Source: an uncultured Jannaschia sp. (GTDB lineage: Bacteria > Pseudomonadota > Alphaproteobacteria > Rhodobacterales > Rhodobacteraceae). Taken from it: a stretch of 64,000 nucleotides of DNA. The notes beneath the pieces are model-generated. The model was not told the origin of the DNA. It worked only from the letters and a program-made list of their open reading frames with translations, and did not search any database. A program made the translations under genes and the position numbers. The DNA is taken from positions 62,001-126,000 of the forward strand of contig CANLTZ010000001.1 in assembly GCA_947494145.1 (NCBI GenBank), given 5' to 3'. Shown one piece after another: positions 10,616 to 37,191 of this stretch. The first letter of the stretch is position 1, and every line of letters begins with the position of its first letter.

Positions 10616-10798
10616 TCTTTTTGGATCCCGTTTGTCGAGTCCCCTTTTGACGTCGATATGTCGGTGGGGCATGGGCCAGGGTGGGGGCGATGTTGTGCCA
10701 GATAGGGCGGAGGGCTTTGGTTTCGTGGGGAAAGCTTGGCGTCCAAGGATGCCTTCCCTCACCGCTTTGTCCTGAGACCGGAATCAAGCCCGCAGGGC

Positions 10799-10941
10799 GC
10801 CGATCCATCGACGGGCCGCCCCCCGGCCCGGCGATTTGGTTGATCTTGGTGCATCGCTGGGGCGGTGTAAGGATATGGCAGCCATAAAGCGCAACAGAAT
10901 GCCCGTCGGATCGCCGACCCGCGGCCCGTCGATGGACCGGC
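10799..10941 (-). repeat. 143-bp dispersed repeat with 21-bp inverted ends, copy A
   Basis: The left end begins GCCGATCCATCGACGGGCC and the right end is its inverted partner (20 of 21 positions match). In minus orientation the whole unit aligns to copy B at 19091-19234 with a single 1-nt gap and about 107 of 143 identical positions by hand count. This includes a conserved core GCTTTATGG(C/T)TGC. Similarity continues for about 28 bp past one inverted end. Copy A begins about 25 nt after the speE-like stop, in sense with that gene. Mismatches show no clear third-position bias, so it is probably not coding. Confidence 0.85.
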
Positions 10942-10966
10942 TCGCATGTTAAGTTGGCATGTCTTT

Positions 10967-12556
10967 CTAAAGCCGTTTCCGGTCTTCGGCGTAGCGCTGA
11001 TAAATGGTCGGCTCAAAGATGGAATTCACTTCAAGCGCCTTGGTGGGCAGAAGGTCGGCGGGGAAAATGGTCGCGGCGGTGAACGCCTGGGGCGTGAGGG
11101 CGCGCAGGCCATCGGGCAGGGTACCAAGGGCTGCCAGGTCGTCGCGCGATGCCATGTGAAAACCCCAGATGCCAAAAGATGGCACCGATGTCTGATAGCT
11201 GGTGATCTGCGGGAAGATCTGATCCAGCGTATGGGCCACCGTCCAATAGGTGTTGGTGGTGGCAAAGGGCGAAGACGATTGCGTCACCAGCGTCGCATCG
11301 GGCGCCATGATGGCCTGGACCATGGCATAGAACTCGACGGAATAGAGCTTCGACAAAGCCTCGTTATGGGGGTCGGGGAAGTCGATGATGATGCGGTCGT
11401 AGCTATGTTCCGTCTCTTGGACGAAGCGGAAGGCGTCGAGATTGTGGATATGGACCTTGGACGAGGCCAGGCTGTCCCCGTTGAGCCGGGTGACCGGGGC
11501 AAATTCGGTGCCCAGGCGCGTCATCTCGGGGTCGAGGTCCACCAGGTCGATGCGCTCGATCCCGTCGTGGCGCAGCACTTCACGCACGGCAAGGCCATCG
11601 CCGCCGCCCAGAATCAGGACATTGGCAGGCGCGCTATCGCCCCAGGACATGACGGGGTGCACTAGGAATTCGTGGTAGCGGTATTCGTCGACCTCGGCGA
11701 ATTGCAGATGCCCGTCGATGAACAGCCGGACATCGCCGTGGTCCCAGGTGTTGGTGACCACCAGCGATTGATACGGTGACTGGGTCTGCCAGACGATACG
11801 GTCGAAATAGAGGTGGTGCTGCGCCCAGCCCGTGATGCGCGAGGCGGCCAATGTCAGCACGAACAAGGCCACGACCGTCAGCACCACATAGCTGAGCATC
11901 CGGCGGAAATCGTCGAGATAATCGCGCAGCCAGAAGACGTTGAGAAGTGCCACAAGCGCGTTGGTCAGGCCCACGGCGAAGGATGCAGTGATCAAGCCCA
12001 GGGACGGCAGAAGCAGCAGGGGGAAGGCCACCGCGCCAAAGAGGGCGCCCACATAATCAAGCGACAGGACATCCGCGATGGATTCCCGCATGGAAGACCG
12101 CTGGGACAGGACCCGTGTAAGGACGGGGATTTCCAGGCCCACCAAAAAGCCGATGGTCAGGATGAAGCCGAACATGCCCACCTGGTAAAGCCAGGGCGCA
12201 AACGGGAAGAGCAGGAACAAGGAGATCGAGCACATGCCGCCCAAGATGGCGAGCATCAGTTCGATCTGGATGAAGGCCTGGATCAAGTTGCCCCGGATGA
12301 AGCGCGACACGTAGGACCCGATGCCCATGGCGAACATGAAAAAGCCGATGGTCAGCGAAAACTGATAGACTGAGTCGCCGATCAGGTAGCTCGACACCGT
12401 GCCGATGATCAGCTCATAGACGATGCCGCACATGGCAACGATGAGGACGGACCCCAGAAGGATGAATGCCTGCCGCTGGGGGAGGTCTGAATAGTCCCGC
12501 GTCTCGGGGCTCAGGGGCGCGTTCGGCCCTGGGGAGGTCAGGTCGGCGTTCGACAA
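10967..12556 (-). CDS. Membrane-fused spermidine synthase-like aminopropyltransferase
   Basis: The 529-residue protein has about seven hydrophobic helices at about residues 28-240, followed by a SpeE-type domain at about 250-520. The cofactor loop is LILGGGDGLAVREVL (GGGDG at about 317-321), with the acidic VDLDPEM at 339-345. The catalytic region is YDRIIIDFPDP at 386-396, where classical SpeE has a D-S-T/S-D-P motif. Such proteins would transfer an aminopropyl group from decarboxylated AdoMet to an amine at the membrane. It is the last gene of a cluster with an AdoMet decarboxylase, which supplies that donor. The acceptor is unknown and may not be putrescine. Confidence 0.85.
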   Translation of the reverse strand: MSNADLTSPGPNAPLSPETRDYSDLPQRQAFILLGSVLIVAMCGIVYELIIGTVSSYLIGDSVYQFSLTIGFFMFAMGIGSYVSRFIRGNLIQAFIQIELMLAILGGMCSISLFLLFPFAPWLYQVGMFGFILTIGFLVGLEIPVLTRVLSQRSSMRESIADVLSLDYVGALFGAVAFPLLLLPSLGLITASFAVGLTNALVALLNVFWLRDYLDDFRRMLSYVVLTVVALFVLTLAASRITGWAQHHLYFDRIVWQTQSPYQSLVVTNTWDHGDVRLFIDGHLQFAEVDEYRYHEFLVHPVMSWGDSAPANVLILGGGDGLAVREVLRHDGIERIDLVDLDPEMTRLGTEFAPVTRLNGDSLASSKVHIHNLDAFRFVQETEHSYDRIIIDFPDPHNEALSKLYSVEFYAMVQAIMAPDATLVTQSSSPFATTNTYWTVAHTLDQIFPQITSYQTSVPSFGIWGFHMASRDDLAALGTLPDGLRALTPQAFTAATIFPADLLPTKALEVNSIFEPTIYQRYAEDRKRL

Positions 12557-12585
12557 GGGACGGATCCTTCGGGTCTGAATCGAAA

Positions 12586-12618
12586 GGGCCCGGTCCGCCT
12601 TCGGGCGGGACCGGGCCC
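12586..12618. other. Long UUCG-capped hairpin between two cluster genes
   Basis: GGGCCCGGTCC and GGACCGGGCCC form an 11-bp perfect stem, extended by GCC/GGC around a TTCG tetraloop with one bulged G. It lies in the 82-bp gap before the speE-like gene. Only a short TTT follows on the minus strand, so it may be an attenuator or mRNA-processing element rather than a full terminator. Confidence 0.6.
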
Positions 12619-12638
12619 CATATGGTCGGGCGCGCGGC

Positions 12639-13226
12639 TTACTTGCCCGCGCGCGGACCGCCGGAGCGGGCCGAGGACGGGGCGGAGTAGCTGGCGCGCG
12701 GTGTGACCGAACGGTTGGCGAAGCTGGACTTGGAGATGCCCGCGCCGCGCTGCCGGTTGATCAGGCTACCGATCAGGACACCGGCCAGGATGCCGGAGCC
12801 GGAAAAGCGCAGGCCGGTGGAATTGCCCGCCACATCGGTGGCGATCAGGCGCTGGTTTTCCTCGTCGATTTCGACGGTGAAGACGCGGCCTTCTTCGGCG
12901 TCCTGGATACCGTTCCCATTGGCATCGGCGAAGCCCAGGAAGCTGGCATCGTTCTGCACCTCAAGTCCCAAGGTCTTGCCGTAGAAGCGCGGCTCCGCGT
13001 TCAGGACATCGGTGTAATAGGCGGTGAATTCGGCCATCTGCGCGTCGCCGACTTCGGTGACATTGTTTTCGCCAAGATAGCCTTGGTAATTCGTCAGCAC
13101 ATATTCCGTGCGGTCGAGAACTTGGCCCAGATCGGCGGTCTGCTCTTGCTGGGGTGCGAGAAAGACGGAATAGGCCACGAAGCCGCCGATCCCCAGAAAG
13201 GCGAGCAATTTGATCTGTTGAAACAT
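12639..13226 (-). CDS. Membrane-anchored protein with calcium-loop-like motif
   Basis: The ATG at 13226 follows AAGGAC and gives 195 residues. A hydrophobic N-terminal segment lies at about 5-24 (IKLLAFLGIGGFVAYSVFLA). A soluble part follows, with an EF-hand-like Asp/Asn loop DANGNGIQDAEE at 101-112. A second short hydrophobic stretch is at about 145-157 (ILAGVLIGSLINR), and the tail is Ser/Arg rich. No family is recognised. The position between a rhomboid-acetyltransferase fusion and a membrane aminopropyltransferase suggests a partner or substrate of those enzymes. The basic C-terminal tail (SKSSFANRSVTPRAS) could be a modification or proteolysis target, but this is speculation. Confidence 0.75.
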   Translation of the reverse strand: MFQQIKLLAFLGIGGFVAYSVFLAPQQEQTADLGQVLDRTEYVLTNYQGYLGENNVTEVGDAQMAEFTAYYTDVLNAEPRFYGKTLGLEVQNDASFLGFADANGNGIQDAEEGRVFTVEIDEENQRLIATDVAGNSTGLRFSGSGILAGVLIGSLINRQRGAGISKSSFANRSVTPRASYSAPSSARSGGPRAGK

Positions 13227-13243
13227 TGAAGAAGTCCTTACAC

Positions 13244-14509
13244 TTAGCCGTGGTCTGATGGCGTTGACGCCAGTGAGCATGTCCACCAGACCTGGTTCAA
13301 TCCTGGCGCAAAATAATCTTTCAGTTCACCGCAATTGATGAATCCGTGTGATGTGAAAGTCGCGCTATTGACCGCTGATATGTCAGAAGGGAGCGCAATT
13401 GTGGCAAGCCGCGCGCCGCCTTTGCGGATCTTTTCCAACCTATCATCCAAGCCGGACACGCCCGCGGGCTGGGCTTGCCAGATCAGGCCCGCAGTGCCGT
13501 CGGTTTCCGGCTCCCGCGCGGCACCGGTGATGGCGAGGCCGGTATCGGGATGCGGTGCGGGGGCGGGCCCGGCCTCATATTCTGGATTGGCCAGACCATA
13601 GATGATCTTGGCCTCGCCCGGCGCGTGGTAGTCAGGCACGGTCAGTTCCACCTCGGCACCGAAATCGGCATACATGCGGTGGGCGGCGGCATAGATGGGC
13701 TGCCCGTCTTCGGCATAATCCGATGTGGCGATGAAAAGCTTGCGGATGCCATCCTCTTTCAAGCGGCCAAGCAGGTCGTTGAGCATGGTGCTGCCCAGCC
13801 CGGCGCCCATTTCCGCTTCGGTCAGATAGGTCCAGGACAGCCAGGCAATGTCGGGCACCTGGTCATCCAGGCCATAGCCGGTGACGCCAATAACCCGGCT
13901 GCCGCGCGCAAGCACGAACATGCCCTCCAGATCGCCAGCCAGGAAGCCCTGTTCCGCTTCCAGCGCGTCGTCTTCATCGGTTTCCTCGATGATGGCGACG
14001 ACCTGGGCGATGTGGGTCATCTTCATGGGTTTCAGGCTGGGGTCTTTACTGCCGAAAAGGGAGCCGAACATGGCGAAACCTCCTCCGATGAGGGCCGAAA
14101 TGGTGTGGGTGGCGACCGACAGGTCTTGTGCGAAGGCGCTGACCTCGATGGCCAAGACAAGGGCGATGGCAATCAGTATCCAATCGCGGCTGCCGGGCGT
14201 GGCGGTTGCCAGCAATGTGTAGCAGGCAAGCCCATAGGCGGGCCCGGAGGCGCCGATGAAGGACGGACCCGTCAGCGCGTATTGCGCGAATGTGCCCGCC
14301 ACCGCGCAGGCGGCGACCAGGCCAAGGGTGCGGATGGGGCCGATCCGACGCTCGGCCACGGTGCCAGCGGCAAGGATGATGCCCAGATTGATCATCAGAT
14401 GGGTGGGGCTGCCATGGCGCAGCACACCCGCGAAAGCGTCGCCAAGGTCGGTCAGCGCGCCAGGGTTGCGGATGGGCCCCAGCCAGGCATGGGCCCCGGC
14501 CAGCAGCAA
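13244..14509 (-). CDS. Rhomboid protease fused to acetyltransferase-like domain
   Basis: The N-terminal membrane domain has rhomboid signatures: HGSPTHLMIN (His32, His37, Asn41), GASGPAYG with the catalytic Ser at about 88, and a later catalytic His in ATHTISALIGG (about 135). Residues ~165-310 resemble a GNAT fold (GAGLGSTMLNDLLGRLKEDG; VPDYHAPGEAKIIYG). A further C-terminal part (to 421) may be a degenerate second acetyltransferase half. The listed TTG start cuts into the first membrane helix; the frame is open upstream to about 14557, where a CTG overlaps the speD stop. The real N-terminus is therefore probably up to 16 residues longer. Head-to-tail packing with speD suggests coupled translation. 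Confidence 0.78.
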   Translation of the reverse strand: MLLAGAHAWLGPIRNPGALTDLGDAFAGVLRHGSPTHLMINLGIILAAGTVAERRIGPIRTLGLVAACAVAGTFAQYALTGPSFIGASGPAYGLACYTLLATATPGSRDWILIAIALVLAIEVSAFAQDLSVATHTISALIGGGFAMFGSLFGSKDPSLKPMKMTHIAQVVAIIEETDEDDALEAEQGFLAGDLEGMFVLARGSRVIGVTGYGLDDQVPDIAWLSWTYLTEAEMGAGLGSTMLNDLLGRLKEDGIRKLFIATSDYAEDGQPIYAAAHRMYADFGAEVELTVPDYHAPGEAKIIYGLANPEYEAGPAPAPHPDTGLAITGAAREPETDGTAGLIWQAQPAGVSGLDDRLEKIRKGGARLATIALPSDISAVNSATFTSHGFINCGELKDYFAPGLNQVWWTCSLASTPSDHG

Positions 14510-14553
14510 GCAGATCGACAGGGTGACCCATGGCGGGGCGGGCGTCGTCTGAG

Positions 14554-14937
14554 TCAGCCCGGCACCGCGATATCGGCCATGATGCCCCTCTCGATCCGGT
14601 TTACGTCTTCGCGGCGGGGCCGGAAGAAGCGGCGAAGGTGGTCAAGCGCAACCATCGGCTCGCAGGTGCCGCACATGAAGATATCGATGGCGGCATAGCC
14701 GTGTTCGGGCCACGTGTGGACCGAGATATGGGATTCCGCCAGCGTGGCCACGCCGGTGAAACCTGCGCGCGCCCCGAAATCATGCATCGACACGTCCAAA
14801 ACTGTGGCCCCGGCCACTTCGGCTGCCCTGCGGAACACATCCGTTGCCGGTTCGGCATCGAACAGGTTCTTTGCGCCGTGGAAGTCAGCAAGGACATGCG
14901 TGCCACAGACAAGCGGCAGGCGGGAAATCTGGTTCAT
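14554..14937 (-). CDS. speD: S-adenosylmethionine decarboxylase proenzyme (SpeH type)
   Basis: The protein is 127 residues, the size of the short bacterial/archaeal class 1B enzyme. It self-cleaves between Glu68 and Ser69 ([14 protein letters not shown]), converting the Ser into the pyruvoyl cofactor. His74 and Cys89 (IFMCG) are the conserved processing and catalytic residues. The product, decarboxylated AdoMet, is the aminopropyl donor for the SpeE-like enzyme encoded further along the cluster. The start MNQISRLP is chosen by family length; the ribosome site is weak. As first gene it probably carries the cluster promoter in the 270-bp gap upstream. Confidence 0.93.
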
Positions 14938-15208
14938 GGGGGTCACACACGCGGGAACTGTATTTTTTCTTGACCGTAGAAGGCAGATAGCCATCGCGCA
15001 ATCACGGGTGTGGGGCGGTGGTTAAGAATGTTGCATATCGGACGGTAGTTGCCATCGGAGTGCCATTTTCTGGGCCGTCCAAAGGGCTGGGTTCCGCCAA
15101 ATGGCACGACAGGTCCGCGGCGTATCGGGCCGATGCCATGGCCGCGCCCCGCATTCCCGTCGCGTGCGCCCGGCTCGGGACGTCAGCCCAACACCCGCGC
15201 GCCGTCCC

Positions 15209-17440
15209 TTACCCGCATTTCGAGAAACCGCAGCTTGCACAGGTCGCGCAGCCTTCGGCCATGTGGATGTCGAAGCTGCCGCAATGGGGGCAGGCGGGTC
15301 CGGGGGCTGCGCCCGGTGCGACCGGGTCGATCTTGAGGCCCAGGCCTTCGCCCGACAGAAAGCCCGTGGCGATCATGTGCCGCTCGATCACCCCGCCGAT
15401 GGCCGCCAGGATAGAGGGCACGTATTTCCCCTGCACCCAGGCGCCGCCACGGGGATCGAAGACGGCCTTCAACTCCTCGACCACGAAAGACACATCGCCA
15501 CCGCGCCGGAAGACCGCACTGATCATGCGGGTCAGCGCCACGGTCCAGGCGAAATGCTCCATGTTTTTGGAGTTCACGAAGATCTCGAACGGCCGCCGCC
15601 GCCCGTCGATTTCGATGTCATTGATGGTGATATAAAGCGCGTGTTCTGATTGCGGCCATTTCAGCTTGTAGGTCTCGCCCGGCAGCGTCGAGGGCCGGTC
15701 CAGCGGGTCGAACATCTGCACGACCTTGGCGGTCTCGGGCTTGGCGTCGTCGGTGGACAGCACGCTGCCCGTCACCGCATTGGGCCGGTAGGTCGTGCAG
15801 CCCTTGCAGCCTTCATGCCAGGCCTGAAGGTAGACGTCCTTGAAGGCATCGAAGTCGATATCGGCGGGCACGTTGATCGTCTTGGAGATGCTGGAATCCA
15901 CCCATTCCTGCGCGGCCGCCTGCATCGCCACATGGTCCGACGGGGCCAGGTCGGCCACGGACACCATGTGGTCGGGCAACGGCGCATCGCCGTGCAGGTC
16001 GCGCCAGACGGCAACGGCGTAGTCTTCGACCAGTTCCTCGGTCCGGCTGCCATCGGGTTGCAGCACCTTGCGGGTATAGCTGTTGGCAAAGATCGGCTCG
16101 ATCCCCGACGATACATTGCCCGCCAACAGGCTGATCGTTCCCGTGGGCGCGATGGAGGTCAGAAGCGCGTTGCGCAGCCCGTGTTCCGCGATGGCGGCCT
16201 GCACATCCGCGTCCAGCCTGCGCACCATGGGCGCGGCTTGAATGGCCGTGCCGTCGTAGAGCGGGAAGGCGCCCTTTTCCGCAGCCAGTGCCGCCGATGT
16301 GCCATAGGCCGCGTTGGCGATGCGGCGCAGCCAGTCGCCCGTGGCCACCACGGCCTCCGGCGCGCCATAGCGCAGGCCGCACATGGCCAGCGCATCGGCC
16401 AACCCCGTGACGCCCAGCCCGATGCGGCGCTTGGCACGCGCTTCATCGGCCTGCTGGGGCAGCGGAAAGCGGGACGCATCGACCACATTGTCCATCATGC
16501 GGATGGCGGTGCCGGTCAGCGCCGCCAATTCCTCCGCGTCGATCCGTGCCTCGTCCGTGAAAGGGTTGCGCACCAGTTTGGCCAAGTTGACCGATCCCAG
16601 CAGGCAGGCGCCATAGGGCGGAAGGGGCTGTTCGCCGCAGGGATTGGTGGCGGCGATGGTTTCGGCATAGCGCAGGTTGTTGGTGGTGTTGATCCGGTCG
16701 ATGAAGATGACGCCCGGCTCGGCATAATCATAGGTCGCCCGCATGATCGCGTCCCAAAGGTCGCGGGCCTTCAGTACCGTGTGAGTCTGCCCGCGAAACA
16801 CCAGCGGCCAATCGCCATCTGCGGCCACCGCCTCCATGAACGGGTCGGTCACCAGGACGGACAGGTTGAACATGCGCAGCCGCGCCGGGTCGGATTTCGC
16901 GGCCACGAAGTCTTCGATATCGGGGTGGTCGCAGCGCAGGGTTGCCATCATGGCGCCCCGTCGCGACCCCGCCGACATGATCGTGCGGCACATGGCATCC
17001 CACACATCCATGAAGCTGAGCGGGCCGGATGCGTCCGCGGCCACCCCATGCACATCTGCGCCCTTGGGCCGGATGGTCGAGAAATCGTAGCCGATCCCAC
17101 CGCCTTGTTGCAGGGTCAGGGCCGCTTCGCGGAGCGCACTGAAAATCCCGGACATGCTGTCTTCGATCGTGCCCATGACGAAGCAGTTGAACAGCGTCAC
17201 CGACCGATCCGTGCCTGCGCCTGCCACGATCCGGCCTGCGGGCAGAAAGCGGAAATCCTGCAAGGCCTCCCGGAAGGGGCCTTGCCACTTGGCAGGCTCG
17301 GCCTCGGGCGCGGCCAGGGCGCGCGCGATCCGGTCCCATGTGGCCTCGACGGTTTCGTCCAACGGTGTCCCGTCGGCGCCCTTGAGGCGGTATTTCATAT
17401 CCCAGATTTGTTCGGCGATGGGTGCGGCGAAAGCGGACAT
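15209..17440 (-). CDS. nrdJ: Adenosylcobalamin-dependent ribonucleotide reductase (class II)
   Basis: This 743-residue enzyme reduces ribonucleotides to deoxyribonucleotides using a B12-generated thiyl radical, so it works with or without oxygen. Key residues are the redox Cys in LFNCFVMG (about 86), NPCGE at 266-270 with the thiyl Cys and Glu, and the second redox Cys in GACLLGSVNL (about 279). The last 27 residues form a Cys-rich tail (CPHCG...CATCASCGFSKCG), as in this subgroup. It is shorter than the roughly 1200-residue form also found in Rhodobacterales. No cobalamin riboswitch is visible in the 78 bp upstream. Confidence 0.93.
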   Translation of the reverse strand: MSAFAAPIAEQIWDMKYRLKGADGTPLDETVEATWDRIARALAAPEAEPAKWQGPFREALQDFRFLPAGRIVAGAGTDRSVTLFNCFVMGTIEDSMSGIFSALREAALTLQQGGGIGYDFSTIRPKGADVHGVAADASGPLSFMDVWDAMCRTIMSAGSRRGAMMATLRCDHPDIEDFVAAKSDPARLRMFNLSVLVTDPFMEAVAADGDWPLVFRGQTHTVLKARDLWDAIMRATYDYAEPGVIFIDRINTTNNLRYAETIAATNPCGEQPLPPYGACLLGSVNLAKLVRNPFTDEARIDAEELAALTGTAIRMMDNVVDASRFPLPQQADEARAKRRIGLGVTGLADALAMCGLRYGAPEAVVATGDWLRRIANAAYGTSAALAAEKGAFPLYDGTAIQAAPMVRRLDADVQAAIAEHGLRNALLTSIAPTGTISLLAGNVSSGIEPIFANSYTRKVLQPDGSRTEELVEDYAVAVWRDLHGDAPLPDHMVSVADLAPSDHVAMQAAAQEWVDSSISKTINVPADIDFDAFKDVYLQAWHEGCKGCTTYRPNAVTGSVLSTDDAKPETAKVVQMFDPLDRPSTLPGETYKLKWPQSEHALYITINDIEIDGRRRPFEIFVNSKNMEHFAWTVALTRMISAVFRRGGDVSFVVEELKAVFDPRGGAWVQGKYVPSILAAIGGVIERHMIATGFLSGEGLGLKIDPVAPGAAPGPACPHCGSFDIHMAEGCATCASCGFSKCG

Positions 17441-17518
17441 GGGCAGGTTTACCCCAAGGATTGGTTGCGCGGAGGTCCAGAGCGTCTAGATATACCCCGA
17501 CCAGGGGGCTCTGTCATC

Positions 17519-17944
17519 ATGGCGATCAATCTCATCAAACTCAGCGTCGGCTCCGACAGCGTGGAGACAATGGCGGCCTGGCAGGCCTCGGCTGCAGCCA
17601 AGGGCCCCGATGGCAAGCCGCGCCACGTGACCCGCATGTGGCCCAAACGCGAGGCGGAGCTGCTCGATGGCGGCTCCATCTACTGGGTGGTCAAGGGCGT
17701 GGTCATGTGCCGCCAACGCATCCTCCGCCTCGATGAGGTGCGCCGCGCCGATGGCATCCCGCGCTGCGGCATCGTGCTGGACCCGTCGCTCGTGCCGGTC
17801 ACGCCGATGCCGAAGCGGCCCTTCCAGGGCTGGCGCTATCTCAAGCCCGAAGATGCGCCTTCCGATATCGACCCATCGCGGCGCGACGACACACCCCTCC
17901 CGGCGGAGCTTTCGGTGGCGCTGGCGGAAATCGGCGTGTTGTGA
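17519..17944 (+). CDS. DUF1489 family protein
   Basis: The 141-residue protein matches the alphaproteobacterial DUF1489 family: MAINLIKLSVGSDSVETM at the start, RHVTRMWPKREAELLDGG, and PKRPFQGWRYLKPEDAP near the end. The function is unknown. A G-rich segment (AGGGGGCTC) precedes the ATG. The stop overlaps the GTG start of the next gene by 4 bp, implying translational coupling with a PanE-like reductase. It is divergent from nrdJ, with 78 bp between. Confidence 0.88.
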   Translation: MAINLIKLSVGSDSVETMAAWQASAAAKGPDGKPRHVTRMWPKREAELLDGGSIYWVVKGVVMCRQRILRLDEVRRADGIPRCGIVLDPSLVPVTPMPKRPFQGWRYLKPEDAPSDIDPSRRDDTPLPAELSVALAEIGVL

Positions 17945-18891
17945 CCATCGCCGTGCTCGGCGCCGGTGCCGTCGGTACCTGGGTCGGGGCAAGCTGGGGC
18001 GCAACGCTGATCGGGCGGGAGGGCGTTCTGGCGCCCCTGCGCGAAGCGGGACTTCGGCTCACGGGCGGCGGCGACCGCCACATTGCCCCGGGCGATATCC
18101 GCATCGCGGGCCCCGAGGCCCTGGCCAATGCCGATCTGATCGCCTTGACGGTCAAGTCCACTGCCCTGTCGCGCGCCGTTGACGACCTGACAACCCATGC
18201 ACGCCCGGACGTTCCGATCCTCTGCCTCATGAACGGCCTGGCCCCTGTCCGCGACCTGCGCGCCGCCCTCCCCAACCCGGTCTTGCGCGGCATGGTGCCC
18301 TTCAACGTCGTCTGGCGCGGCGCTGCCCATCTGCACCGCTCCAGCGCCGGGCACGTGGCGGTCGAAGATGCACCCGCCACAAGGGGTCTGCCCGATACCG
18401 AAGCCCGCACCGACATGGAGGCGCTGCAACACGGCAAACTCCTCCTGAACTTGATCAACCCCATCAATGCCTTGTCGGGCCTGCCCCTGCGCCAGATGCT
18501 GTCGCGCAAGCCGTGGCGCCTGGTCTACGCTGCCACCGTGGACGAGGCCCTGCGCGCCTATGCCGCCAAGGGCATCGTCCATACCAAAGCCGGCCCCATC
18601 CCCCCCGCGTGGAGCGGCCCGCTGCTGCGCCTGCCCGACGCGATCTTCGTTCACACGTTGCTGCGGCTGCAAAAGATCGACGCAGAAAGCATGACCTCCA
18701 TGGCCAGCGACTTGGCTGGTGGCCACCAGACGGAAATTGACACCCTAAACGGCGAAATCGCGCGCCTGGCCCCGGGGGGCGCCCCGGTCAATGCCGGACT
18801 GGTCCGCCTGATCCACGCAGCCGAAAAGGGCGGTTGCAAGACCTGGACTGCCCGCGACCTTGCTGCCGAGATCGGCTTGTCGGGCGCGTGA
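17941..18891 (+). CDS. 2-dehydropantoate 2-reductase family protein
   Basis: The 316-residue NADPH-dependent reductase has an N-terminal Rossmann motif (MTIAVLGAGAVGTWVG, glycines at 7-12) and the family segments LTVKSTAL and LLLNLINPINALSGLP, which include the catalytic Lys and Asn region. It may be PanE, converting ketopantoate to pantoate for coenzyme A synthesis. However, ketopantoate-reductase-like paralogues are common, so the symbol is withheld. The GTG start overlaps the DUF1489 stop (GTGA). Confidence 0.82.
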   Translation: MTIAVLGAGAVGTWVGASWGATLIGREGVLAPLREAGLRLTGGGDRHIAPGDIRIAGPEALANADLIALTVKSTALSRAVDDLTTHARPDVPILCLMNGLAPVRDLRAALPNPVLRGMVPFNVVWRGAAHLHRSSAGHVAVEDAPATRGLPDTEARTDMEALQHGKLLLNLINPINALSGLPLRQMLSRKPWRLVYAATVDEALRAYAAKGIVHTKAGPIPPAWSGPLLRLPDAIFVHTLLRLQKIDAESMTSMASDLAGGHQTEIDTLNGEIARLAPGGAPVNAGLVRLIHAAEKGGCKTWTARDLAAEIGLSGA

Positions 18892-19336
18892 CCCGGACTG
18901 TCGCTTGGCGAAGGCGTCCCCCCGCGCCCCCTCCGCTGCTGCCTGGATAGAGGCGCAGCACGATGGCTTTGATACCAAGCCAATCATTCCCCAGCACGCC
19001 GCCGGGGGCCGGTGTCTTTGGCTTTGGCCAGAGACCATGGGGGCGAGGTCTGCTTGGAGCCCAGCGCACACTGTCGTCGCTCACGCGCAAGCCGATCCGT
19101 CGACGGGCCGCGGCGCGGCGGTCTGAGGGGGATTCTGGAGTGCTTTATGGTTGCAAGGTCATTGCTTTGCCCAAGCGACGCGCTGATGGTGGCCAGATCG
19201 CCGTGCCGTGGAGGCGGCCCGGCGATGGACCGGCGGCCTTCGGCCTTGCTTCCGGTCTAGGGTGCTGACTGGGAATGTCCGGTCTGAGCCCTAGTTGCCC
19301 TTTGCTCTGCCTATCACGGTGACTTAGAATACAGGC
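18892..19336. other. Intergenic region with repeat B
   Basis: This 445-bp gap between panE-like and the acetyltransferase contains the second 143-bp repeat (19091-19234). The short open frames here are not supported by ribosome sites or composition. No RNA gene was recognised in the remainder. Confidence 0.75.
19091..19234 (+). repeat. 144-bp dispersed repeat with 21-bp inverted ends, copy B
   Basis: The left end GCCGATCCGTCGACGGGCC and the inverted right end match at 18 of 21 positions. Aligned to copy A in reverse orientation, the internal 101-102 bp share about 69 positions. The similarity runs on to about 19262 (CTTGCTTCCGGTCTAG against CTTGATTCCGGTCTCA). The copy lies downstream of panE-like and before a low-GC acetyltransferase gene. 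Confidence 0.85.
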
Positions 19337-32215: not shown

Positions 32216-33910
32216 TCAGAGGATCAGATCGCCCGCATTCATGTCGCGCACCCAAAGGATGTCGATCCGGGCATCGGCTTCGCCGTCTCCGTCGGCGTCG
32301 ATGGCCAGGCGCTGATCCATGAAGCGCACCTGGGCACCGCTGCCATCGAAGCCTTGCTCATCGATCCATTCCAGACCGCCGAAGCCCGTCAGGTCGATGC
32401 GATCCGTGCCGGAATCGAAGCCTTCGATCGTGTCCCGGTCGCGCGCGCGAACGCCCGTATCGCCCGGATTGAAAACAAAGATGTCGCGCGAATTGCCGTC
32501 TTCCCAGTCAGCCAGCAGGTCGGCCCCGGCGCCGCCATTGAAGATGTCGCGCCCATTGCCGCCAACCAGACGGTCATCGCCGGTGCCGCCGCGCAGGTCG
32601 TCATTGCCGTCCTGACCCGCAATGTCGTCATTCCCGCTGGATCCGTTGAGCGTGTCGTTGCCGTTTTCACCGCGCAGCTTATCGTTACCCGCGCCGCCGC
32701 CTAGCTGGTCGTTGCCGTCCCCGCCGGCGATGCTGTCGTCGCCCTGGCTGCCCATGACGCTATCCACGCCTGTGCCGCCATAGACGGTATCGTTACCCGA
32801 ACCGGCAAGCAGCATATCGTTTCCGTCACCGCCATTAAGGGTGTCGTCGCCGCTATTGCCCCGCAAGGTGTCGTTGCCTTCCTGGCCGCTCACCCGGTCG
32901 CTGCCCGCGCCACCGACCACCAGATCGCGGCCTTCCTCGCCGAACAGGTCATCATTGCCAGTGCCGCCATAAAGGGAATCGTTGCCGAAATCGCCGCCTA
33001 TCGTGTCGTTGCCGTTCTGTCCTTGGGCCCGGTCATTGCCAGTGCCCATCCAGATCGCATCGTCCCCGTCGCCGCCGCGCAGGCGGTCATCGCCTTCATT
33101 GCCGGAAAGCGTGTCAGCGCCTTCCCCGCCGACAATCGTGTCGTTGCCGTGGCCGCCGCCCATGGCGTCGTCGCCGTCTTCGCCCTTGATCAGGTCGGTG
33201 CCATCTTCCCCCCAGAGGGAATCGTTGCCAGCCCCACCGATCATCAGGTCGTCGCCTGCGCCGCCGCCCGACCGGTCATTGCCGTTCCCGGCCTCGATCG
33301 TGTCATCGCCAAGACCTGCCCAGATGGAATCGTTGCCACCACCGGCATCGAACAATTCATCCTCGGCGTCAGACAGGGCGACGCTGTAGGTGCCGGAATT
33401 CAGCGTTTCGGACGCCTCGGTGCCATAGACGATGTTCACCCCATTCACGAACCAGTTCAGCCAGCCTGCGACGTCGTCCACGCGCTCATTCGCGTTGCCA
33501 TCTTCATTCAGAAACCGCCCATCTCGGTATTCGAAGCCGATGTGGTAGATCGCATCCGCTATGGTGTTGACGAATGCGCGGTTCTGAAACTGCAACGTTC
33601 CGCCATCGCCCTGCACCAGGTGATAGCCAGTTTCGATATTGCCCTCATCGTTCCCATGGCCTTCGACGAACCGTTCATACAGCGCGGCATTCCCGCGGAT
33701 ATAGTCGCTGATCGCCTCCAGATCGTCTTCGTCGAGCTGGCGATCCGCGTTGACGCCCGTGGCCCGGATGGCCGCGGCGATCACATCGTTCATCGTGCGG
33801 GCAGCGTCCACGCCACCGGCAAGTTCATCAGCGGGCAGTCGCGCGCGCAGGCCCGGATCGGCGGCAGTAAATTCGGCGAGACCTTCGAGGCCGGGGATAT
33901 TGGTCGGCAT
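32216..33910 (-). CDS. RTX calcium-binding repeat protein
   Basis: The ATG at 33910 follows AAAGGAATACGCA and gives 564 residues. About 170 N-terminal residues of unknown fold (MPTNIPGLEGLAEFTAAD...) precede roughly 30 nonapeptide repeats of the GGxGxDxxx type (about 185-480), which bind calcium as a beta roll. A C-terminal segment of about 80 residues (DIFVFNPGDTGVRARDRD...) resembles the secretion end of type I-exported RTX proteins. No type I exporter genes adjoin it. The gene is convergent with the coiled-coil OmpA gene, 13 bp apart. Confidence 0.88.
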   Translation of the reverse strand: MPTNIPGLEGLAEFTAADPGLRARLPADELAGGVDAARTMNDVIAAAIRATGVNADRQLDEDDLEAISDYIRGNAALYERFVEGHGNDEGNIETGYHLVQGDGGTLQFQNRAFVNTIADAIYHIGFEYRDGRFLNEDGNANERVDDVAGWLNWFVNGVNIVYGTEASETLNSGTYSVALSDAEDELFDAGGGNDSIWAGLGDDTIEAGNGNDRSGGGAGDDLMIGGAGNDSLWGEDGTDLIKGEDGDDAMGGGHGNDTIVGGEGADTLSGNEGDDRLRGGDGDDAIWMGTGNDRAQGQNGNDTIGGDFGNDSLYGGTGNDDLFGEEGRDLVVGGAGSDRVSGQEGNDTLRGNSGDDTLNGGDGNDMLLAGSGNDTVYGGTGVDSVMGSQGDDSIAGGDGNDQLGGGAGNDKLRGENGNDTLNGSSGNDDIAGQDGNDDLRGGTGDDRLVGGNGRDIFNGGAGADLLADWEDGNSRDIFVFNPGDTGVRARDRDTIEGFDSGTDRIDLTGFGGLEWIDEQGFDGSGAQVRFMDQRLAIDADGDGEADARIDILWVRDMNAGDLIL

Positions 33911-37136: not shown

Positions 37137-37191
37137 TTGAGTATTTATGGACCAGTGATGCCCCCTCCATCACTGGTCCATAAATACTCAA
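37137..37191. repeat. Perfect 24-bp inverted repeat (paired GAGTATTT elements)
   Basis: TTGAGTATTTATGGACCAGT (continuing GATG) and its exact inverse surround a 7-nt CCCCCTC loop. Each arm resembles the GGAGTATTT...GCCAGGATGAA element found singly at 731, 8219 and 62525, so this is a tail-to-tail pair. It lies between priA and hisC. There is no T-run after it on the minus strand (TTCCCACC), so simple termination is not clear. Confidence 0.9.

Follow-up and report, generated by a model that had tools for sequence, protein, structure and literature searches.

An apparently unnamed family of palindromic intergenic repeats, probably mobile, in Rhodobacterales

Short palindromic intergenic repeats are, as a kind, well known. 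REPINs, which are paired repetitive extragenic palindromes (REPs), adopt a stable hairpin and a 'clover' fold and occur in tandem groups, in the part of the describing paper drawn on here (PMC3116915). The CGTC REPs of alphaproteobacteria are given as lacking a dedicated transposase in the available part of a second paper, the main text of which holds no occurrence of Rhodobacter, Roseo-, Ruegeria or Paracoccus (PMC3733652). Two copies of a palindromic repeat lie in a 64,000-nt stretch of an uncultured Jannaschia sp. (Rhodobacteraceae; contig CANLTZ010000001.1, positions 62,001 to 126,000; hereafter the window), and they appear to represent a new, unnamed family with unusual features. The literature search found no published description of such a repeat in Rhodobacterales, though most subscription papers fell outside its coverage, so an earlier one may exist. 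The family is probably a non-autonomous mobile palindromic element of this order, similar in build to REPINs and to the enterobacterial repetitive intergenic consensus (ERIC), and not tracking the REP-associated tyrosine transposase RAYT.

The original prediction, made from the letters of the window, comprised two copies of a ~143-bp repeat with inverted ends, one in each orientation, and similarity running on past one end. Direct reading and alignment of the sequence recover both copies at the predicted positions, with the predicted complementarity of their ends and 76% identity to each other across 172 bp. The continued similarity is likewise real, corresponding to a tail hairpin that is an integral part of the element. 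As delimited by a covariance model (R1, built from 49 sequences), the core exceeds the limits first drawn, and weaker conservation extends ~8 nt upstream and ~16 nt downstream of it. The features are:

10775..10943, minus strand: copy 1 core, full-length form (R1 match G000:C1:72775-72943, 194.5 bits, E=5.7e-34; BLASTN family)
10921..10941, minus strand: copy 1, 5' arm of the long stem, 21 nt (sequence; counted stem)
10799..10819, minus strand: copy 1, 3' arm of the long stem, 20/21 complementary (sequence)
10884..10888, minus strand: copy 1, TTTAT motif of the apical loop, conserved across genera (sequence; alignments)
10775..10798, minus strand: copy 1, tail hairpin (sequence; conserved in alignments; tail-pattern search of the genome)
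19089..19258, plus strand: copy 2 core, full-length form (R1 match G000:C1:81089-81258, 155.5 bits, E=1.6e-26)
19091..19111, plus strand: copy 2, 5' arm of the long stem (sequence)
19214..19234, plus strand: copy 2, 3' arm of the long stem, 18/21 complementary (sequence)
19144..19148, plus strand: copy 2, TTTAT motif of the apical loop (sequence; alignments)
19235..19258, plus strand: copy 2, tail hairpin (sequence; alignment)

The host genome holds many further copies, not two chance-level matches. BLASTN searches with each window copy as query (best 40 of 115 and of 118 candidates scored) gave best E-values of 2.6e-98 to 2.3e-20 for the best 40 of 115, far beyond chance. R1 yielded at least 123 matches at E<=0.1, a lower bound on copy number because only the best 150 of 7713 candidates were scored. 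Removal of 12 antisense duplicates left at least 111 matches in 4.9 Mb (102 at E<=1e-3; two overlap each other on contig C4), of which 62 are at least 150 nt long with at least 60 bits and 24 are internally shortened to 48-86 nt, most retaining both ends. The tail pattern alone (3 mismatches) occurs at 32 places in the genome, 30 inside model matches and two starting within 20 nt beyond one, against none for the reversed control; the tail was never found apart from the element at this stringency, and its reading as a free REP was rejected. Rfam offers no match at the window copies at gathering score, its sole match in the window being an ffh small RNA (RF01793, 61.9 bits) at 24-75 on the minus strand, and a search of six loci at E<=1 matched only a 5' ureB small RNA elsewhere in locus L214. 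The prediction that the repeat is not clearly coding also holds: many copies have ATC, ATA or GTG in place of the ATG possible after TTT, and the reading frames are shifted by indels (by eye). A small open reading frame from the ATG of TTTATGG to a TGA in the tail, open in some copies, was discarded on the same grounds (unconserved ATG, shifting indels; by eye). Inserts are seen in several copies: loci L019 and L034 have in common a ~37-nt palindromic insert in their 3' halves, L024 has another in the 5' half, and L019, L034, L439 (~1520-1570) and L440 (~2360-2405) carry small hairpin insertions in the 3' arm or bulge, often with GTC on one side and GAC on the other (by eye). Some host copies, at L009, L021 and L027, have a different intergenic repeat (like GGTTTTCGAAAACC...CTGAATCAG) in their flanks (by eye).

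The anatomy of the element was drawn from 32 full-length host copies and 17 from relatives, 49 sequences in all. From 5' to 3', it begins with an arm (GCCGGTCCATCGACGGGCCGC in the host), GG, two free bases and CGGCGAT, continues with a 74-nt loop carrying (G)CGCTTTATG in its first third, and closes with ATCGCCG, GGCC plus a G-rich bulge, the complementary arm and the tail GCCCTGCGGGCTTGATTCCGGTCC. One strand can fold into 21-bp arms, the bulge, an inner stem of 7-9 bp and the loop with TTTAT, followed by the tail hairpin; the element measures about 170-190 bp, with a full-length core of ~168 bp. With an inverted palindrome on either side of a spacer, closing into a single long hairpin, the element has the build of a REPIN; it also shows the short length, non-coding sequence, inverted ends and many copies of a miniature inverted-repeat transposable element (MITE). 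The stem, named by hand and then counted (RNAalifold's own structure on alignment A2 was poor), is paired in 87.7% of cells across the 49 sequences, with 48 double-changed cells versus 17.3 in shuffles (0/500 as high). Two local hairpins, one per half, covary too but less (14 cells versus 5.8), and in 93 distinct copies the pairs of the arms rank with the columns that co-vary most strongly. Structure inside the loop is unsupported, with an RNAalifold energy of -1.37 versus -0.42 (standard deviation 0.85) for column shuffles and only four pairs beside TTTAT. This motif is itself at least 90% conserved per position in copies from other genomes, and in the host 11.6% of its cells differ from consensus, as in the arms.

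The outer arm sequence, X, occurs three times: in the 5' arm, as its complement in the 3' arm, and again in the tail. X is GGTCC in the host, and GCGCC, CGCGC and others elsewhere (further types by eye). Because X recurs in the tail, the 3' arm co-varies with the tail as well (47/609 cells double-changed versus 22.9, maximum 33 in 300 shuffles). This pairing is weaker in 53 copies from other genomes (70.8% of cells versus 63.6% shuffled; 18 double changes versus 7.3), partly because the tails align poorly. The 3' arm therefore has two possible partners, and a long-hairpin fold competes with a multi-hairpin fold.

Covariation differs sharply between and within genomes. The logic of the test headed 'WHAT DISCRIMINATES' was that hairpins serving the host should show kept pairs and compensatory changes within one genome. 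The 53 copies from other genomes show 187 double changes versus 58.3 shuffled and 92.7% of cells paired versus 78.2% (0/500 for both), whereas 40 host copies show 8 versus 6.9 (192/500) and 89.4% versus 88.8% (28/500). Strong covariation between genomes with hardly any inside the host suggests a structure kept by the lineages that spread, although the within-host test has limited power because the arms differ little: host copies deviate from consensus by 10-12% in the arms and 31% in the loop. The slower change of the arms is a sign of constraint, which by itself cannot separate spread from host use. The conserved arms and TTTAT, in about a hundred intergenic copies, would also fit a site, repeated along the chromosome, to which a nucleoid-associated or regulatory protein binds. 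From one subfamily or genome to another, the arms are exchanged for others and pairing persists, few copies occupy divergent gaps (4/105) and 15/19 congeners have no BLASTN match at E<=1e-5, all of which make this account very improbable; the regulator site offered in the original prediction gained no specific support.

BLASTN at E<=1e-5 found the family in 10/60 genomes (host included), 6/41 genera and 4/19 congeners, and R1 in 43/120 sampled genera of the family Rhodobacteraceae, host included (E<=1e-6, strict filters). In a class-wide sample of 240 genomes, the host alone matches R1 at E<=1e-5. A strict pattern recovered at least 116 stretches from GTDB species genomes; apart from one record named only Alphaproteobacteria, the matches listed come from genera that we take to belong to Rhodobacterales, such as Roseovarius, Natronohydrobacter, Roseinatronobacter, Sulfitobacter, Roseivivax and Maritimibacter. 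Matches extend to 94 plasmid records, and 91 Pseudosulfitobacter plasmid records carry the element; viral contigs gave no match to the strict pattern.

Near-identical copies occur at separate places. Pairs of copies from different loci reach 99.5% identity over 187 bp and 97.8% over 181 bp in Roseovarius tolerans, and 97.3% over 186 bp in Sulfitobacter sp. 20_GPM-1509m. In R. tolerans, similarity drops outside the core, and an outer inverted repeat (TTTGGCCTGGAGCGG and relatives) is left in some Roseovarius copies; across 77 copies from other genera, flanks are more alike when inverted than mismatched pairs are (p=0.006; 10/77 above the 95th control percentile). Pseudaestuariivita atlantica (G115) has 51 matches, with head-to-tail groups spaced 180-301 bp start to start in several cases and 191-205 bp in three; no orthologous gap was available for its copies in its genus, which offered one other, incomplete genome. 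Seven copies of genome G080 (L243-L249) are alike well beyond the core. In two of the seven, the element is enclosed in a unit of ~330 bp whose inverted ends begin with TA, as though it were carried by a larger MITE.

Orthologous gaps also differ in the element they hold. In three pairs of loci, the element is inverted relative to its orthologous flanks: L288/L331 (86.8% over 190 bp; flanks 79.7% and 91.6%), L285/L355 of two Maritimibacter (81.1%) and L290/L295 (70.1%). The first pair lies at:

L288 174-363 and L331 2797-2986: inverted pair

The L288 copy is nearer to copies elsewhere (L325, 95.1% over 144 bp; L303, 93.4% over 166 bp) than to L331, which occupies the corresponding position. 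In a second subfamily, type 2, the arms are GGGCAGCGCCCGACCGC and its complement, the bulge is of an ATGG type, CACTTTAT is present and the tail ends in TTGATTCCGGGC. Its arms are unrelated to those of type 1, with which it shares, within one species, only the general build, the CACTTTAT apical motif, a bulge and the TTGATTCC tail (by eye); the type 2 copy at L111 1745-1925 (minus strand) scores 51.3 bits with R1, and type 2 matches 145 plasmid records. Between lysR and puuD, Sulfitobacter sp. 20_GPM-1509m carries type 1 (L283 3253-3451, 199 bp) and P. pseudonitzschiae SC33-90 type 2 (L439 1385-1636, 252 bp), with flanks 89.5% and 95.6% identical. At sigJ, CP069022.1 has 248 bp with an additional type 2 element versus 15 bp in L336 (flanks 95.8% and 97.2% identical). 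At uraH, P. pseudonitzschiae H46 has no type 1 element in the BLASTN comparison and type 2 arms are present; the gap measures 79 nt in Leisingera and 5 nt in Ruegeria. The H46 uraH-lysR gap also contains a 250-amino-acid open reading frame with no Pfam match (L108 923-1675). Flanks match in L294/L360 and L314/L200, as judged by flank comparison only, and those of L015 are rearranged in relatives. Near-identical dispersed copies, strain differences, a second subfamily and flipped or exchanged elements in orthologous gaps show that the family turns over.

Copies are concentrated beside stop codons. Both window copies lie 3' of a gene in its sense direction, as predicted, at 23 nt and 197 nt from the stop:

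10967..12556, minus strand: neighbour of copy 1, spermine/spermidine synthase-domain gene, stop 23 nt before the copy (open reading frame; Pfam PF01564)
17941..18891, plus strand: neighbour of copy 2, ketopantoate reductase-like (ApbA) gene, stop 197 nt before the copy (open reading frame; Pfam PF02558 and PF08546)

The genes around the 111 host matches were called with an in-house codon-usage program that had been trained on the window. No match is inside a called gene, five overlap a gene end by at most 30 nt, and they divide into 62 in convergent gaps, 24 sense after a gene, 15 antisense, 4 divergent and 6 at edges. The control was the window's 37 element-free gaps of at least 20 nt (4 convergent, 9 divergent, 24 co-directional); gaps adjoining element gaps (3/57 convergent) were dropped as biased, because the neighbour of a convergent gap cannot be convergent. 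Where both neighbours are called, convergent gaps are in excess (62/105 versus 4/37, Fisher p=2.4e-7) and divergent gaps in deficit (4/105 versus 9/37, p=7.6e-4). The facing stop codon lies at a median distance of 50 nt for the 89 copies with one on the 5' side, and of 54 nt for the 78 copies with one on the 3' side. In named genomes of other genera, 77 copies comprise 35 convergent, 17 sense and 8 antisense co-directional, 8 divergent and 9 at edges, and on four P. pseudonitzschiae plasmids the element follows, in sense, ilvD, a YhaV-type toxin gene, a RepB-type replication gene and uraH. Intrinsic-terminator-like hairpins between stop and element are fewer than at element-free 3' ends (8/113 sides versus 13/75, p=0.035), in a comparison in which the stretches on element sides are shorter and one hairpin of the control set is counted twice.

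This placement, the scarcity of terminator-like hairpins and the occupation of one convergent gap by type 1 or by type 2, depending on the strain, speak for a host-functional, orientation-independent 3'-end element, the hairpin of which would limit read-through from the facing gene or protect mRNA 3' ends and the copies of which would be kept for that purpose. However, the same placement is expected from a mobile element that avoids genes and promoters. A hairpin with a T-run at the element's end, as in an intrinsic terminator, was found in just 7/176 strand tests, pairing is little kept copy by copy in the host (within the power of that test) and 77/120 genera have no match under the strict filters. 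A family maintained for such a function appears unlikely, though the element may have a host role as an mRNA 3'-end hairpin. The structured 3' RNA element of the original prediction is partly supported: covariation between genomes demonstrates real structure and the location is the gene 3' end, but orientation in co-directional gaps is not significantly biased (24 sense versus 15 antisense, p=0.20) and host copies show little compensatory change. Among the three readings then offered, the MITE is the best supported, by dispersal, inverted ends, near-identical copies at separate places and strain differences, although no target-site duplication was found in the host genome and no transposase partner is known.

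A further possibility is that a RAYT (TnpA-REP) transposase moves the family as a REPIN population, as it does in Pseudomonas. The paired inverted palindromes with their spacer, alternative long- and multi-hairpin folds, head-to-tail groups and shortened remnants are all consistent with the part of the REPIN description drawn on here (PMC3116915). Yet the Y1/RAYT domain PF01797 matches only 4/27 genomes (3/14 element-bearing and 1/13 others), on which ground RAYT was rejected as general mobiliser. The single host match covers 35 positions and contains a stop codon, no cognate RAYT was found with PF01797 in eight copy-rich genomes (G115, G131, G028, G061, G092, G093, G110 and G021, with at least 16 copies each) and the consensus carries no unpaired GTAG or CGTC tag at the hairpin end (by eye). 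Movement of the family by RAYT is thus highly unlikely.

In the favoured explanation, a non-autonomous mobile palindromic family, a putative trans-acting enzyme would recognize the folded element, perhaps as single-stranded DNA, and move source copies. New copies would survive mainly between convergent genes, filtered by selection against damage to promoters and genes, because copies there presumably break no promoter, and would later decay through point mutation and internal deletion. Several results weigh against this explanation. The search for a mobiliser, with PF01797 as the sole candidate, found none. Direct repeats at the ends were detected neither in 89 host copies (p=0.11) nor in 77 copies of other genera (p=0.38), most copies in both sets being diverged, and the outer inverted repeat is not significant in the host genome (p=0.11). 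The comparisons yielded no clean empty site with exact junctions, several of them swapping most of the spacer. For the window copies, none of 20 genus genomes offered an empty site with both neighbours adjacent (in G007 they lie on different contigs), and R1 found no match at E<=0.01 in 16 orthologous stretches. Orientation is kept in the both-occupied uraH pair L283/L107, element exchange within one convergent gap may mean selection for having one, and host use could also account for the slower change of the arms. A bolder proposal, regarded as rather doubtful, is that the element is recognized by shape and not sequence: arms would be freely replaced with pairing kept, the X-X'-X arms would switch between two folds, and a non-RAYT enzyme would move the element as single-stranded DNA, with repeated landings, whichever way round, in the same gaps where gene ends face each other.

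Two other repeats were seen elsewhere in the window: 19 registered copies of a 27-nt-spaced repeat at 32545-33310, which we take to be probably RTX-type calcium-binding repeats, and a perfect 24-nt inverted repeat with a 7-nt spacer at 37137-37191.

With these findings, one of the commonest marine bacterial orders gains an abundant repeat family that appears to be unnamed. They provide a natural test of how palindromic repeats spread with no evident RAYT, because near-identical copies occur in several species, 91 Pseudosulfitobacter plasmid records carry the element and two subfamilies with unrelated arms share one architecture. They are also relevant to whether hairpin elements are attracted to convergent gene ends or are favoured there by selection.

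Among known systems, Bru-RS (length tabulated in PMC2267715) and RIME are likewise alphaproteobacterial intergenic palindromic repeats, the comparison being one of kind and not of sequence. R1 matched 0/239 other genomes of the class sample. To our knowledge, a tail hairpin and a three-fold arm repeat are not features of ERIC. As described in the parts of the sources used, ERIC resembles the element in size class (127 bp), in its one long stem-loop, in being mostly intergenic with cases at gene 3' ends and in its tens to hundreds of copies, but was described from gammaproteobacteria (PMC2267715, PMC10969869); the separation is by description, not sequence. QMITE2 of Coxiella, similarly set apart by description and not sequence, is a MITE found mainly in 3' untranslated regions, with truncated copies that resemble REPs, and differs in the direct repeats at its ends and in its host, within the portion of the account available (PMC10969869). 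The CGTC-tagged REPs are palindromic, common in alphaproteobacteria and without a dedicated transposase, but are, in the available part of their description, single hairpins with 8-9 bp stems, a CGTC tag, which was not seen here, and mostly a CCA tail (PMC3733652). Closest in build are the REPIN/REP doublets associated with RAYT, which share the extragenic inverted doublet around a spacer, the long hairpin or 'clover', compensatory changes, tandem groups and remnants; by comparison with the part of that description consulted, the element has a longer spacer and an extra tail hairpin that repeats the outer arm sequence (PMC3116915). It differs further in that most copy-rich genomes searched have no RAYT match and in its strong bias towards convergent gaps.

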